From the IMG/VR virus record IMGVR_UViG_3300042562_000386, positions 1 to 36,271 of that record: a DNA stretch of 36,271 nucleotides. The stretch is one strand, 5' to 3'. Origin of the DNA: a virus. Within the stretch, counting starts at the first letter, position 1; each line of letters starts with the position of its first letter. A program made the translations under genes and the position numbers. Shown here one piece after another: positions 4,903 through 13,521 of the stretch. The notes beneath the pieces were generated by a model, which was not told the origin of the DNA, did not search any database, and saw only the letters and a program-made list of their open reading frames with translations.

Positions 4903-5601
4903 ATGTTACCAACTTTAAATGCTCCCATCGGTGGAGACTCAAATTACTCAAACAAGATAGCCCCAGTAGGAATGCATCTTGCACGTATCTACCAAATCAT
5001 TGACTTAGGAACTACAGAGCAAACTGGTCAGTTTGGTGGTAAGAAGAGAAAGGTACAAGTCCTTTTTGAACTACCATTAGAGACGGCAATCTTTGACCCT
5101 AACAAGGGTGAGCAGCCATTCTACGCACGTAATATGTACACCTTATCAATGCATGAGAAAAGCACCCTAAGAAAAGATGTTCACTCAATTGAGGGTAAGA
5201 CATTGAGTGAAGACGAGGCTAAGAAGTACAATGTATTTAGTTTAATTGGTAGAGAATGCATGGTCAACATCATTCATAAACAAAGTGGAGATAAGACATT
5301 TGCCAACATTCAAACTATTACACCATTACCTAAAGGTATGGTATGCCCACCAGCAGTTAATCCACCACTTGTATTCTCAACTCAACAACCTGACATGGTT
5401 GTGTTCAGAAGCCTACCTGAATTTGTTCAAGATAAGATTAAACTTAGTGATGAATTTATAGCTTACATGAATGCTGAGATGTCTGCTACTTATCCTAAGA
5501 TTGAAGCACTACCTACATTCAGTATTGAAAAGCCAGTTAACCCAAGTGATTTTGACTGGATGCAAGGTGACCAAGAAGACCCAACCAAACTACCATTTTA
5601 A
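4903..5601 (+). CDS. Single-stranded DNA-binding-like protein (232 aa)
   Basis: The first half has the phage SSB/DUF669-like pattern: IAPVGMHLARIYQIIDLGT, then a GGKKRKVQVLFELP strand pair, then a loop with YTLSMHEKSTLRKD. This OB-like layout is common in phage recombination clusters. The C-terminus is acidic and ends DPTKLPF, very like the DDDIPF tip by which SSBs recruit partners. It probably coats single-stranded DNA during replication and recombination. It lies directly before the recombination partner and RecE-like exonuclease genes, which fits. A strong hairpin follows at 5614-5634. Confidence 0.72.
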   Translation: MLPTLNAPIGGDSNYSNKIAPVGMHLARIYQIIDLGTTEQTGQFGGKKRKVQVLFELPLETAIFDPNKGEQPFYARNMYTLSMHEKSTLRKDVHSIEGKTLSEDEAKKYNVFSLIGRECMVNIIHKQSGDKTFANIQTITPLPKGMVCPPAVNPPLVFSTQQPDMVVFRSLPEFVQDKIKLSDEFIAYMNAEMSATYPKIEALPTFSIEKPVNPSDFDWMQGDQEDPTKLPF

Positions 5602-8185: not shown

Positions 8186-8202
8186 ATTGACACGATGTCA
8201 AT
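8186..8202. promoter_or_regulatory. Perfect 6-bp palindromic hairpin or operator
   Basis: ATTGAC (8186-8191) and GTCAAT (8197-8202) flank a 5-base centre. The site lies in the noncoding gap between 8181 and 8290, just before a larger terminator. It could be a dimer-binding site or a small RNA hairpin. Confidence 0.4.
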
Positions 8203-8205
8203 GGG

Positions 8206-8266
8206 GTGGGCGGTTGTTAGAAATACAAAATAATTTAAGGGACTAATTGAACTGCCCACTTTTTTT
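8206..8266 (+). terminator. Rho-independent terminator with long loop
   Basis: GTGGGCGGTT (8206-8215) pairs with AACTGCCCAC (8250-8259) as 10 bp with one G-U, and is followed by seven T (8260-8266). The loop is unusually long (34 bases) and A-rich. It separates the nuclease block from the helicase gene starting 23 bases later. Confidence 0.7.
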
Positions 8267-8289
8267 AACTTACAAAAAAACAAACTACT

Positions 8290-9657
8290 ATGAACGAATA
8301 CGAGAAATTTTTAGAACAGAAAAAACATTCAATAGGTAATTTTGGATTTGATGCAAATTATATTCCTGACATTGCATTTGACTTTCAAAAATTTATTATT
8401 GAGAAAGCAATTAAAAAAGGTAGAATAGCAATATTCGCTGATACTGGATTAGGTAAAACATTAATTCAATTATCAATTGCAAATAACATTATAAGAGAAA
8501 CAAATAAGAAAGTATTAATCTTAACACCATTAGCAGTAGCATTTCAATTTATTTTAGAAGCAGAAAAGTTAGGCATTGATGATATTGAATATTCAAAGGA
8601 TGGTAAGCATACTAAGAAAATAGTAATATGTAACTATGAAAGATTACATTACTTTAATTCTAATGATTTTGTTGGTGTTATATTAGATGAAAGTTCAATC
8701 TTAAAGAACTTTGATGGTGCAATTAAAAATCAGGTTACATCATTTGTAAAAAAGATTCCTTATAGATTCTTATCTACTGCTACACCATCACCTAATGACT
8801 TTATTGAATTAGGTACAAGTAGTGAAGCATTAGGATACATGGGTTATATGGATATGTTAGGTAAGTTTTTTAAAAACAATCAAAACTCAGTTGATTCTAA
8901 TAATAGAAATATTGGTGAAAAGTTTTATTTAAAGCCACACGCTGAAAAGGATTTCTTTGCTTGGGTTAATCAATGGTCAATTATGGTTAAGATGCCATCT
9001 GACATAGGATTTTCAAATGAAAGATATAATCTACCTGAATTGATAGTTAATAAACACATTGTAGAGAATCAATCAATGATTGATGCTTATGGTCAAATAC
9101 AATTATTTACACCAGTGGCAAAGTCAATGACTGAGGTAAGACACGAACAAAAGAAAACAGAGTCAATTAGATGTGAGAAAGCAATTGAATTAGCGAATGG
9201 TAAAACAAGTGTATACTGGTGCAATACTAATAATGAAAGCAGCATCTTAAAACATTCAGATAAGGAAGCAGTAGAGATTATAGGCAGTCAATCAATAGAA
9301 CGTAAAGAAGAGATTCTATTAGCATTTGCAAATGGTGAAATTAAAAGACTAATAACTAAAGCAAAGATGACATCTATGGGTCTTAACTGGCAGCATTGTA
9401 ATCACTCTGTATTTTTTCCAACATGGTCTTATGAGCAATATTATCAAGCTATAAGAAGATTTTGGAGATTTGGTCAAAAGAATGATGTTACTATTGACAT
9501 GGTTATATCAGATGGTCAAACAAGGGTAATTGAAGCACTACAACAAAAAACACAAAAAGCAATTCAACTACACGAGAATCTAACAAAAAATGTAAATAGT
9601 ACATTTACTAACATAACAAAAGAGTTTAACAAAGAAATAATCAAACCTAAATTTTAA
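8290..9657 (+). CDS. SNF2-type DEAD/DEAH helicase/ATPase (455 aa)
   Basis: Superfamily 2 motifs appear in order: Walker A DTGLGKT (51-57), motif Ia-like ILTPLAVAFQF (about 77-87), Walker B-type LDESSILKN (132-140, DESS rather than DEAH), motif III TATPSPND (about 163-170), then motif V-VI KAMTSMGLNW-like region and QAIRRFWRFGQ with the arginine finger. This is the phage SNF2-like family, often without nuclease domains, that moves on double-stranded DNA. It is followed 5 bases later by a DNA methyltransferase, a pairing seen repeatedly in phages. Possible roles are replication start, protein displacement or coupling to methylation. The gene is more AT-rich in codon choice than the tail genes. 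Confidence 0.88.
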   Translation: MNEYEKFLEQKKHSIGNFGFDANYIPDIAFDFQKFIIEKAIKKGRIAIFADTGLGKTLIQLSIANNIIRETNKKVLILTPLAVAFQFILEAEKLGIDDIEYSKDGKHTKKIVICNYERLHYFNSNDFVGVILDESSILKNFDGAIKNQVTSFVKKIPYRFLSTATPSPNDFIELGTSSEALGYMGYMDMLGKFFKNNQNSVDSNNRNIGEKFYLKPHAEKDFFAWVNQWSIMVKMPSDIGFSNERYNLPELIVNKHIVENQSMIDAYGQIQLFTPVAKSMTEVRHEQKKTESIRCEKAIELANGKTSVYWCNTNNESSILKHSDKEAVEIIGSQSIERKEEILLAFANGEIKRLITKAKMTSMGLNWQHCNHSVFFPTWSYEQYYQAIRRFWRFGQKNDVTIDMVISDGQTRVIEALQQKTQKAIQLHENLTKNVNSTFTNITKEFNKEIIKPKF

Positions 9658-10676: not shown

Positions 10677-10687
10677 TAACTTAGCAC

Positions 10688-10801
10688 CATTCAGAGGTCG
10701 AATCCTGAATGAATTGTAAAACATTGTCACCCTATGGTGACTGCGAGGTAAGGAGTAAAATCTGAGCCGATTCGACCGCAGTCCTCATAGGGTATTTTTT
10801 T
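10688..10801 (+). ncRNA. Structured RNA with two hairpins, loop-loop pseudoknot and terminator
   Basis: Hairpin 1: CATTCAG (10688-10694) pairs with CTGAATG (10705-10711), loop of 10. Hairpin 2: ACCCTATG (10729-10736) pairs with CATAGGGT (10786-10793), then after a 2x2 internal loop GACTGCG (10739-10745) pairs with CGCAGTC (10777-10783). The first loop contains GGTCGAATC (10696-10704), the exact complement of GATTCGACC (10769-10777) at the top of hairpin 2, so a 9-bp tertiary helix is possible (one base, C10777, is shared). A competing hairpin GTCACC/GGTGAC (10726-10741) is exclusive with hairpin 2. Seven T (10795-10801) follow, as in an intrinsic terminator, only 3 bases before the next ATG. 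It could be a cis attenuator or riboswitch-like element for the initiator gene or a free small RNA. I do not recognise a known family. Confidence 0.72.
10709..10765 (+). CDS. Possible 18-aa leader peptide inside the structured RNA
   Basis: ATG at 10709 opens an 18-codon frame (MNCKTLSPYGDCEVRSKI) ending TGA at 10763-10765. It crosses the competing hairpin and the 5' half of the terminator stem, so a ribosome on it would change which structure forms, as in attenuation. It could also be chance; no start-site signal supports it. Confidence 0.2.
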   Translation: MNCKTLSPYGDCEVRSKI

Positions 10802-10804
10802 ATT

Positions 10805-11548
10805 ATGAAACGTAAAAAAGCATTTCTATTATACCACGATTCTTATGATACAATAAGATTTTTGGACGATGAACAATTAGGTAAGCTAACAAGATTAATC
10901 TTTGAGTATAAGTTGTATGGTACATTCCCTGACCCATCTAATATGCTATTCTTTGTATTTAATCCTATCAAACTACAATTAGATAGAGACAATGAAAGTT
11001 ATTTAGAATCAATAGAAGCAAAGAGTAAGGCTGGTAAAAAGTCAGCAGAAATCAAAGCATTAAAACAACTTCAACAGAGTTTAACAGAATCAACACGTGT
11101 TGAAAGTGTTGATGTGTGTTCAACAGAATCAACTGATAATGATAATGTAAATGATAATGTAAATGATAATGAAAGAGAAATAGTTAAAGTAAAGAATAAC
11201 AAAGAGCCAAAATCTATAAGTGATTTTGTCAAGTTGATGGATTCAGAGAAATACTTAGGAACTGATGAAATTCTTAATAAGACATTTATCAACTTTATTG
11301 AAATGAGAATAAGTATCAAAAAGACACCTACTAAGAATGCAGTTGTGTTACTTGTTAAGACTCTTAAAGAACTATCTAAGGCAAATAAAGATATTGCTAT
11401 TAAGATACTTGAAAAGTCTATACAAAATAATTGGCAAGACCTTTATGAACTCAAGACTAATAACATTACCAACTTTGTCAAGTCAGCACCAGTAGTCTTT
11501 AATCGTTCATCACAAGGTCAACACTATGTAGGTGACGATGTAAAATAG
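10805..11548 (+). CDS. Replication initiator-like protein (DUF6291/DnaD-like, 247 aa)
   Basis: The N-terminal ~75 residues follow the DUF6291 pattern: KKAFLLYHDSYDTIRFLDDE, QLGKLTRLIFEYKLYG, then a PF...FNPIKLQLDRDNESYLE helix. A low-complexity linker (about 85-130) follows, with S/T/V and D/N repeats. The C-terminal helical domain (about 140-225, including KTLKELSKANKDIAIKILEK) fits a DnaD-like helicase-loading part. It lies upstream of the DnaB gene, as phage initiator or loader genes often do. The linker is encoded by DNA full of repeats (11070-11171), a candidate origin. The ATG follows the RNA terminator by 3 bases, so expression may depend on that RNA. Confidence 0.68.
   Translation: MKRKKAFLLYHDSYDTIRFLDDEQLGKLTRLIFEYKLYGTFPDPSNMLFFVFNPIKLQLDRDNESYLESIEAKSKAGKKSAEIKALKQLQQSLTESTRVESVDVCSTESTDNDNVNDNVNDNEREIVKVKNNKEPKSISDFVKLMDSEKYLGTDEILNKTFINFIEMRISIKKTPTKNAVVLLVKTLKELSKANKDIAIKILEKSIQNNWQDLYELKTNNITNFVKSAPVVFNRSSQGQHYVGDDVK
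11070..11171. repeat. Iteron-like repeat cluster, candidate replication origin
   Basis: Three copies of TT(C/T)AACAGA (11070-11078, 11080-11088, 11119-11127), a 12-bp direct repeat AACAGAATCAAC (11083-11094 and 11122-11133), a perfect 14-bp palindrome centred on CACGTG (11090-11103) and a 12-bp tandem repeat GATAATGTAAAT (11141-11152 and 11153-11164, with partial copies each side) are packed into about 100 bases. The last part is AT-rich, as an unwinding region would be. It lies inside the putative initiator gene, where phage lambda also keeps its origin. Confidence 0.5.
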
Positions 11549-11909: not shown

Positions 11910-12182
11910 ATGAAACTTACTAAAGACGAATGCCGAATATTATTTGCTTGTATCTATGATAACAAGTATAATTTAGTCAATGATTTAACTAAAGAAGATG
12001 CTATTAAAACTATTGAAGCATTGACAGACCTTGAACGTAGATTGAATAAAAGTTGTGAAGATGGTAGAAGAAATGGTAGAACATCGCAAAATTCATTTAA
12101 TGATACGTTAAAAAGGTTTGTAAAATCTATATCAAATGACCAACCCACAACAAGCACTTATAGGTATCTTAATGACTGGTGA
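11910..12182 (+). CDS. Hypothetical helical protein (90 aa)
   Basis: The start is the ATG at 11910; the frame is open upstream but would pass through the hairpin. Helical N-terminus (MKLTKDECRILFACIYDNK) and a basic, asparagine-rich second half. It overlaps the DnaB start by 47 bases in another frame. No family recognised. Possibly a helicase-associated protein by position only. Confidence 0.5.
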   Translation: MKLTKDECRILFACIYDNKYNLVNDLTKEDAIKTIEALTDLERRLNKSCEDGRRNGRTSQNSFNDTLKRFVKSISNDQPTTSTYRYLNDW

Positions 12183-13521
12183 AACACATCAGGAACTAAT
12201 GCCTCAATTAGGTGAGCATCTCTTCAATGAGGTGCTTACCTCACGATGTTATGGAGTAATTAAGAAAACGATTGACAAAGGACTTACTCCTAACTTGGTC
12301 AACTTTTTTATGACTGCCAATGAACTTGATAAGTTCACACCTAAAGAAACATCTGAGATAGTTACTTGGTCAAACAACTTGACCTACAACGAACCAGTTA
12401 ACGAATACATTGCTATCCTAAAAGATAACCACATCAAGCGGTCAATAGCATCAATAGTAACTGAACAATCATTAGGACTTCTTAATAACGATGGTTACAC
12501 AACTGCTACTGAAATAATCAAGTCATTGACCAACCTACTTGATACTGGTAGTAGTTCAGATAATATCATTAACCTATCTGACCTTACCAATGATGAACGT
12601 GAGGCATATTATAGAAGAGCAGCACTAACACTATCGGGTAAAACTACTGGTCTTGAAACTGGTCTTAACTCACTCAACAAATTTACTGGTGGATTCCATC
12701 CCGAATTTATAATCATTGCTGGTAGACCATCGATGGGTAAAACTGCATTAGCATTATTTCATGGTATGAAAAGTGGTGAGGCTGGTATATACTTTAACCT
12801 TGAAATGAATAAGAGTCAACTATGTCAAAGGTTAATTTTACAAGAGGCTGGTGACTCAATCCATTCATCAAGATTACGTGATGGTAACCTAAGTCAATCT
12901 GAGTTACATTCATTTGAAAAGACTATTGGAAGTATCGAGAAACAACCTTTCTTAATCTACGATAAAGCAAGATGTGGTGTCCATGAGGCAATAAGAGTAA
13001 TGAAGAAAGAACATCGTAAGGGAAGATGCAAGTGGGCAATCATTGACTACTTACAATTGATGACCATAGAAGGCTTTAAAGGTGGTAACAGAGAGGCAGA
13101 GGTAGCTGAGATAAGTAGAACATTAAAAGCAGCACAAAAAGAACTTGGCATACCAATCATAGCACTTGCTCAGTTGAGCAGAGAAGTTGAAAAGAGACCT
13201 GATAAGAAACCAATCCTATCTGACTTGAGAGAATCAGGTTCATTAGAGCAAGATGCTGACTCAGTTGCTTTTGTTTGGAGACCATCATACTATGGATTGA
13301 ATGATGAAAATGATACACCATACACCAATCATATCTTTTATCTATTTGAAAAACATCGTCAAGGTGCTACTGGTGTGGTTGAGTTTAGACATTCACCTAA
13401 CATGACCAACTTTACTGATGTTGTTACACATGATATTGGCAGTAGTTACTTACCTCAACCTAAAGACTTAAGACATTATGCAGATAAAGACTGGGATAAA
13501 GACACCAACCAACCTTTCTGA
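12136..13521 (+). CDS. dnaB: Replicative DNA helicase, DnaB family (461 aa)
   Basis: An N-terminal helical domain (PQQALIGILMTGETHQEL...) is followed by the RecA-like core: Walker A GRPSMGKT (196-203), the DnaB-typical FNLEMNKSQLCQRL, Walker B-region WAIIDYLQLM, then IIALAQLSREVEKRPDKKP and the SGSLEQDADSVAFVWRP arginine-finger region. Length matches bacterial DnaB. It unwinds DNA at the phage fork and probably takes over host primase and polymerase, since no phage polymerase or primase gene is present. The start at 12136 gives the expected short DnaB N-terminus. Confidence 0.96.
   Translation: MTNPQQALIGILMTGETHQELMPQLGEHLFNEVLTSRCYGVIKKTIDKGLTPNLVNFFMTANELDKFTPKETSEIVTWSNNLTYNEPVNEYIAILKDNHIKRSIASIVTEQSLGLLNNDGYTTATEIIKSLTNLLDTGSSSDNIINLSDLTNDEREAYYRRAALTLSGKTTGLETGLNSLNKFTGGFHPEFIIIAGRPSMGKTALALFHGMKSGEAGIYFNLEMNKSQLCQRLILQEAGDSIHSSRLRDGNLSQSELHSFEKTIGSIEKQPFLIYDKARCGVHEAIRVMKKEHRKGRCKWAIIDYLQLMTIEGFKGGNREAEVAEISRTLKAAQKELGIPIIALAQLSREVEKRPDKKPILSDLRESGSLEQDADSVAFVWRPSYYGLNDENDTPYTNHIFYLFEKHRQGATGVVEFRHSPNMTNFTDVVTHDIGSSYLPQPKDLRHYADKDWDKDTNQPF

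Follow-up and report, generated by a model that had tools for sequence, protein, structure and literature searches.

A structured leader RNA precedes the DUF6291 gene

The window, i.e. the whole stretch of 36,271 nt corresponding to IMG/VR record IMGVR_UViG_3300042562_000386, contains a DUF6291 protein gene followed by a gene for a DnaB-type helicase. Directly upstream of the former lies an element specifying a predicted leader RNA of about 110 nt (Table 1). Two hairpins, P1 and P2, are joined by an A-rich linker, and a strand in the P1 loop is exactly complementary to a strand inside P2. This 9-mer occurs twice in the whole window, namely as the two strands of the kissing helix, compared to 0.04 occurrences expected by chance. 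The folding energy of the element was -39.5 compared to -27.7 in shuffled sequences (z -3.6, none of 200 shuffles as good), the pseudoknot not being counted; as a free duplex the kissing helix amounts to -13 kcal/mol.

Table 1. Positions of the leader RNA features and neighboring genes in the window.
Feature	Position	Strand	Details
Promoter -7 box	10677-10684	+	TAACTTAG; 3 nt upstream of P1
P1, 5' hairpin	10688-10711	+	7 bp; CATTCAG (10688-10694) pairs with CTGAATG (10705-10711)
Kissing (pseudoknot) helix, loop strand	10696-10704	+	GGTCGAATC; in the P1 loop
A-rich linker	10712-10728	+	joins P1 and P2
Alternative hairpin	10726-10741	+	GTCACC-CTAT-GGTGAC; mutually exclusive with P2; role uncertain
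P2, terminator hairpin	10729-10793	+	8-bp outer helix (10729-10736 with 10786-10793), 2x2 internal loop, 6-bp inner helix (10739-10744 with 10778-10783)
P3, small hairpin	10747-10768	+	3-4 bp (10747-10749 with 10766-10768); inserted in the P2 loop
Kissing (pseudoknot) helix, partner strand	10769-10777	+	GATTCGACC; exact complement of GGTCGAATC; flush on the inner P2 helix
Terminator U-run	10795-10801	+	7 T
DUF6291 protein gene	10805-11548	+	downstream of the element; PF19808, E 3e-21
DnaB-type helicase gene	12136-13521		next after the DUF6291 gene; DnaB_C, E 7e-74

All parts named in the original prediction were found in place: the two hairpins, the loop complementarity, the competing hairpin, the seven T, the ATG of the DUF6291 gene at 10805 and an 18-codon ATG frame beginning at 10709 within the element. 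Its description of the second hairpin as 8+7 bp held for the outer helix and was slightly generous for the inner one. No match to Rfam 15 was obtained at the gathering threshold for the whole window or for six related loci, in agreement with the earlier statement that no family was recognized. With permissive thresholds the best sub-threshold match was a microRNA model (20.3 bits compared to a threshold of 100). A tRNA search detected none, and the idea of a tRNA mimic was dropped because the T-arm-like sequence GGTCGAATCC is merely one of ten loop forms found among homologues. Comparison of the DNA with phage records gave no real match to the RNA. Scanning a genome collection with the core pattern returned 3 matches in unrelated organisms, which were judged to be chance; none scored with the family model, and the single match inspected by eye did not have P1. 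A replication origin was rejected as well, as there is no GC-skew turn near 10.7 kb.

Covariation supports the kissing helix in a family of homologues

Homologues were collected from relatives of the downstream protein and by two pattern scans of IMG/VR. The family element is carried by 48 loci, and 38 distinct sequences entered alignment A1. Including the pseudoknot, 97.8% of the cells in A1 were paired, compared to 88.6% in shuffles and 29-43% after sliding of the partner strand, and 117 cells showed double-sided changes compared to 38.7 in shuffles. In the kissing helix 98.8% of the cells were paired and four of the nine pairs carried exact double-sided changes, having changed 2, 5, 6 and 5 times on a tree built excluding these columns. 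Ten allelic forms of the kissing loop exist, and the partner strand matches all of them save for one terminal A-C pair in one form. This sole mismatch, present in four sequences, is situated at the pair adjoining a single-nucleotide loop, a position at which strain is expected. Variable and invariant pairs alternate along the helix (A1 columns 18-26), pairs 2, 4, 6 and 8 covarying exactly and pairs 3, 5, 7 and 9 being invariant.

P1 was paired in 97.7% of the cells with double-sided changes at 4 pairs, P2 in 99.8% with such changes at 3 pairs, and P3 in 88.8%, with a compensatory exchange of GGC/GCC for GAC/GTC. As G-U cells (29) far outnumber A-C cells (6), the structure acts as plus-strand RNA and a minus-strand RNA was rejected; weak matches of the model on the minus strand arise because P2 is palindromic. 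The U-run comprises 5 to 8 T in 32 of 36 distinct family homologues and is broken after 3 T in the remaining 4, and some unpaired bases are conserved inside the close family.

Altogether, the comparative support for the family structure is decisive. The proposed 9-bp loop-to-hairpin interaction is thus real, being both an exact complement and covarying in the 38 homologues. Lack of covariation had been named beforehand as the result that would speak against it, and double-sided changes are clearly present. The original observation is confirmed and is stronger than first stated, and its interpretation is supported in part, as detailed below.

Whole-record searches detected one family copy per phage, except for a 62-kb contig (IMGVR_UViG_3300037493_001386; loci L044 and L078) which has two copies with differing kissing sequences at 5464 and 43823. 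This contig possibly represents two phages joined in assembly.

The element follows a Bacteroidota-type promoter box in variable gene contexts

The box TAACTTAG is of the TAnnTTTG type with a T to A change at position 7. TAnnTTTG has been described as the -7 box consensus in Bacteroides and Flavobacterium johnsoniae (PMC7366714). The -33 box of the element is weak and poorly defined. At the 48 family loci the upstream genes are of at least six unrelated kinds and the downstream genes of at least six kinds, including three kinds of DUF6291 protein, small unknown proteins (57-109 aa) and a methylase. TAnnTT(T/A)G is kept at the same place in homologues with unrelated upstream genes (e.g. TATCTTTG in L050 and TATATTTG in L063 and L067) and, ending few nt before P1, is the sole upstream feature common to these contexts. 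Concerning the other end, the distance from the stem end to the ATG is 9-20 nt in all 48 loci.

At one locus (L064:9685-9809) an RNA of the window type follows an 86-aa gene resembling the pre-helicase gene of the window and precedes a DNA methylase gene. Its presence in another slot here implies movement of the RNA from one intergenic position to another.

Since the -7 box is of the Bacteroidota type, and considering the relatives, the host of the virus is probably a member of the Bacteroidota; the methylase gene shares 82% DNA identity with its counterpart in Flavobacterium phages.

In the window itself, a plain terminator-like hairpin (GTGGGC...GCCCAC, 8195-8275) followed by seven T and devoid of a partner loop is located about 35 nt before a helicase ATG (8290). 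In related phages this pre-helicase slot is occupied by a kissing-loop leader.

The same architecture recurs in unrelated sequences

Weak model matches revealed two further leaders, one in locus L022 and one preceding the helicase gene in Flavobacterium phages hattifnatt and snusmum, which share the layout of the window element without useful sequence similarity to the family. The collected loci (1.94 Mb) were then searched by anatomy, requiring a 5' hairpin, a complement of its loop inside a second hairpin, a T-run and an upstream -7 box. Some of these loci overlap or are fragments, and duplicates were merged by sequence. The search gave 71 matches, 36 of them in the family; when a quarter of the loci were shuffled, the counts were 4 and 1. 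A stricter version yielded 60 matches (32 in the family) compared to about 5.6 expected. When anchored at the promoter, an element was found after 3.3% of 2,138 TA[TAC][ACT]TTTG boxes and after 0.2-0.5% of the occurrences of three control motifs; the 51 non-family matches formed 41 clusters, of which about 35 were judged convincing by eye. The anatomy descriptor was composed after the first examples were known, whereas a loop-swap control is independent of that knowledge. For this control, 68 promoter-hairpin-terminator arrays were picked irrespective of their loops, the family being entered once. Loop complementarity of at least 6 nt was present in 29 of them, compared to a mean of 1.9 and a maximum of 6 in 500 trials with swapped loops.

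Members of this class consist of a -7 box, a 5' hairpin, an A-rich linker and a terminator hairpin carrying the complement of the first loop in its inner loop. The kissing helix measures 6-10 bp (9 bp in the window), and in many elements the partner strand constitutes the entire loop of the inner P2 helix; an example is locus L167 with GAATC[GTGCAG]GATTC and GGA[CTGCAC]TCC. Outside the family the kissing strands covary as well: the near-identical RNAs of L031 and L034 contain GTGAGACG/CGTCTCAC and GTGGAACG/CGTTCCAC, respectively. Linkers range from 10 to 42 nt, mostly 15-22 nt, with 51% A. Both in the window (10712-10728) and in other class members they often read AAAACATT or AAAATATT, even between unrelated elements. 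The A-rich linker may sit in the helix groove or bind a factor.

Region 10677-10801 of the window combines loop complementarity beyond chance with a -7 box before P1 and a U-run after P2. By these features the window RNA is a member of a class extending beyond a single sequence family. Such membership in a large class of kissing-loop leaders could not be seen from the window alone and, because structure alone is conserved, sequence-based family searches would miss the class. It is most plainly described as an intramolecular kissing loop, of which the window element is a version with P3 added; the sequences fit pairing in cis or in trans alike.

Among the non-family elements 46 of 51 are intergenic, with a median of 19 nt to the next start; for about a quarter there is no start codon within 40 nt. 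Recognizable downstream genes encode DEAD/ResIII helicases, DnaB, DUF3987, Lin1244_N and DUF6291 proteins and HNH endonucleases and belong mostly to the replication module, a bias to which the collection itself contributed, as the helicase gene served to fetch many of the loci.

A putative attenuator leader and its alternatives

Our preferred reading, which we hold with about even confidence, is a promoter-proximal attenuator leader acting in cis, with a terminator locked by the intramolecular kissing loop. Transcription would start at the foot of P1, which would fold first. As P2 emerges, its loop strand would pair with the P1 loop, the kissing helix locking the two hairpins with the A-rich linker spanning the joint. 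This helix is proposed to favor or time the closure of P2, either by holding it closed or by setting when it closes. Most transcripts would then stop at the U-run, giving a compact RNA whose two ends are tied, and expression of the downstream gene would rely on read-through, its level depending on how well the kissing terminator closes and perhaps being altered during infection. What the sequences display directly is the structure, its covariation, the order of promoter, terminator and ATG, and the recurrence before replication genes, whereas termination in vivo, regulated read-through and a regulating factor are inferred.

The arrangement itself is that of an attenuator leader in the broad sense, as promoter, terminator and gene start succeed each other with no second promoter between. 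Because the 9-20 nt to the ATG fit no promoter and transcripts from upstream would also enter P2, expression of the downstream gene would have to rely on read-through, which is attenuator logic.

The main rival to the attenuator reading is an independent gene, with its own promoter and terminator, for a stable small RNA. The kissing loop would hold both ends of this RNA together, it would function in trans in the course of infection, and its proximity to an ATG would merely reflect tight gene packing. Promoter and terminator indeed bracket the folded RNA exactly, the family RNA moves among different upstream and downstream genes, and intra-operonic small RNAs extending from a transcription start site to a terminator have been validated in Bacteroides (PMC7366714). 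However, class elements lie a median of 12-19 nt before the next start, compared to 124 nt in the case of the loci's plain terminators, the unpaired parts share no target-binding sequence across the class beyond the A-rich linker, and several phages carry two or three elements each with differing loops. We regard this explanation as possible but doubtful. An attenuated mRNA and a free small RNA may also both be made.

It is unlikely that the element operates chiefly as a 5'-UTR device in which P1 at the 5'-end blocks decay and P2 near the AUG limits ribosome entry, termination being minor. The location of P1 at the predicted 5'-end, the 9-20 nt between P2 and the AUG and the poor quality of some U-runs are compatible with this idea, but most elements possess a good U-run, which would be needless for control of translation or stability.

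The original prediction had described the element as having the form of a riboswitch, attenuator or regulatory RNA with a switchable terminator. A structured plus-strand leader RNA with a terminator-like end stands, whereas a ligand riboswitch does not: about 27 class representatives share the structure and have no conserved unpaired core able to form a binding pocket. We consider it very unlikely that a metabolite, or translation of the 18-codon frame, controls hairpin 10726-10741 as an antiterminator. This hairpin is intact in 99.5% of the close-family cells and forms first when growing transcripts are folded, but it shows zero double-sided changes. As it has -7.4 kcal/mol compared to -30 for P2, no compensatory change and no counterpart above chance in the class, we do not base the proposed mechanism on it. 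In 27 representatives no class-wide antiterminator hairpin exceeded shuffles (mean p 0.51; 6 of 27 at p<=0.1), so that a bistable switch is unsupported as a general mechanism. Likewise, the frame proved not to be conserved, since it varies from 5 to more than 30 codons and 8 of 36 RNAs lack an ATG frame of 10 codons; leader-peptide attenuation was rejected on these grounds.

Intermolecular loop pairing into dimers or rings, as in phi29 packaging RNA, would suit two mutually complementary loops per RNA whose sequence is free if matched, but appears highly improbable given that the 15-22 nt linker seems roughly suited to a joint in cis, that several elements per phage are possible, each preceding a gene, and that the Rfam library, which presumably includes the phi29 pRNA family, gave no match.

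Relation to known RNAs

In cobalamin riboswitches a kissing loop (L5-L13) forms between the aptamer and the expression hairpin. The window class resembles these in that a kissing loop links an upstream hairpin to a hairpin deciding on expression, and differs by the absence of a ligand-binding core, of class-wide sequence conservation and of an Rfam match. Phi29 packaging RNA and ColE1 RNA I/RNA II, like the window class, have hairpin loops that are fully complementary and vary in sequence. Their pairing, however, is intermolecular and functions in packaging or in the control of plasmid copy number, roles without support in the window class. The STAXI motif is a repeated pseudoknot near SSB, topoisomerase, antirestriction and integrase genes (PMC2864571). 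Both it and the window class are pseudoknot RNAs without known function near DNA-handling genes; however, STAXI is a tandem pseudoknot repeat, while the window class has one P1-P2 pair, accompanied by a promoter and a terminator, and no Rfam match. Bacteroides intra-operonic and 5'-UTR small RNAs share a transcription start site and an intrinsic terminator inside a Bacteroidota operon, and a kissing-loop architecture is not among the features described in the parts of that report cited here (PMC7366714).

Both kissing loops acting on expression hairpins and pseudoknots close to genes for DNA handling are thus already known in other forms. The kissing-loop leader layout before replication genes suggests a gene-control device that is as yet undescribed. 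Our literature search found no account of leaders with a pseudoknot or kissing loop in such phages, and an automated or supplementary listing elsewhere is possible. Gene timing in Bacteroidota phages is little understood, and a shared layer of RNA control is suggested by the repeated occurrence of the promoter-kissing-loop-terminator module ahead of helicase, DnaB, primase-like and initiator-like genes. A bolder proposal, which we consider rather unlikely, goes further than plain attenuation: a large, undescribed phage RNA class defined by this architecture alone would be a general control device in Bacteroidota, operating either via promoter-proximal RNAs altering RNA polymerase or host factors in trans, or via a trans-acting competitor of the kissing loop that opens all replication-gene leaders together.

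Cultured examples comprise hattifnatt9-1 with three elements at 9372, 13312 and 14346 of MN812207, filifjonk9-1, snusmum and the Olleya phage Harreka_1, and F. psychrophilum phage 6H probably also carries a class element. The occurrence in cultured virulent Flavobacterium phages and an Olleya phage makes the module directly testable.
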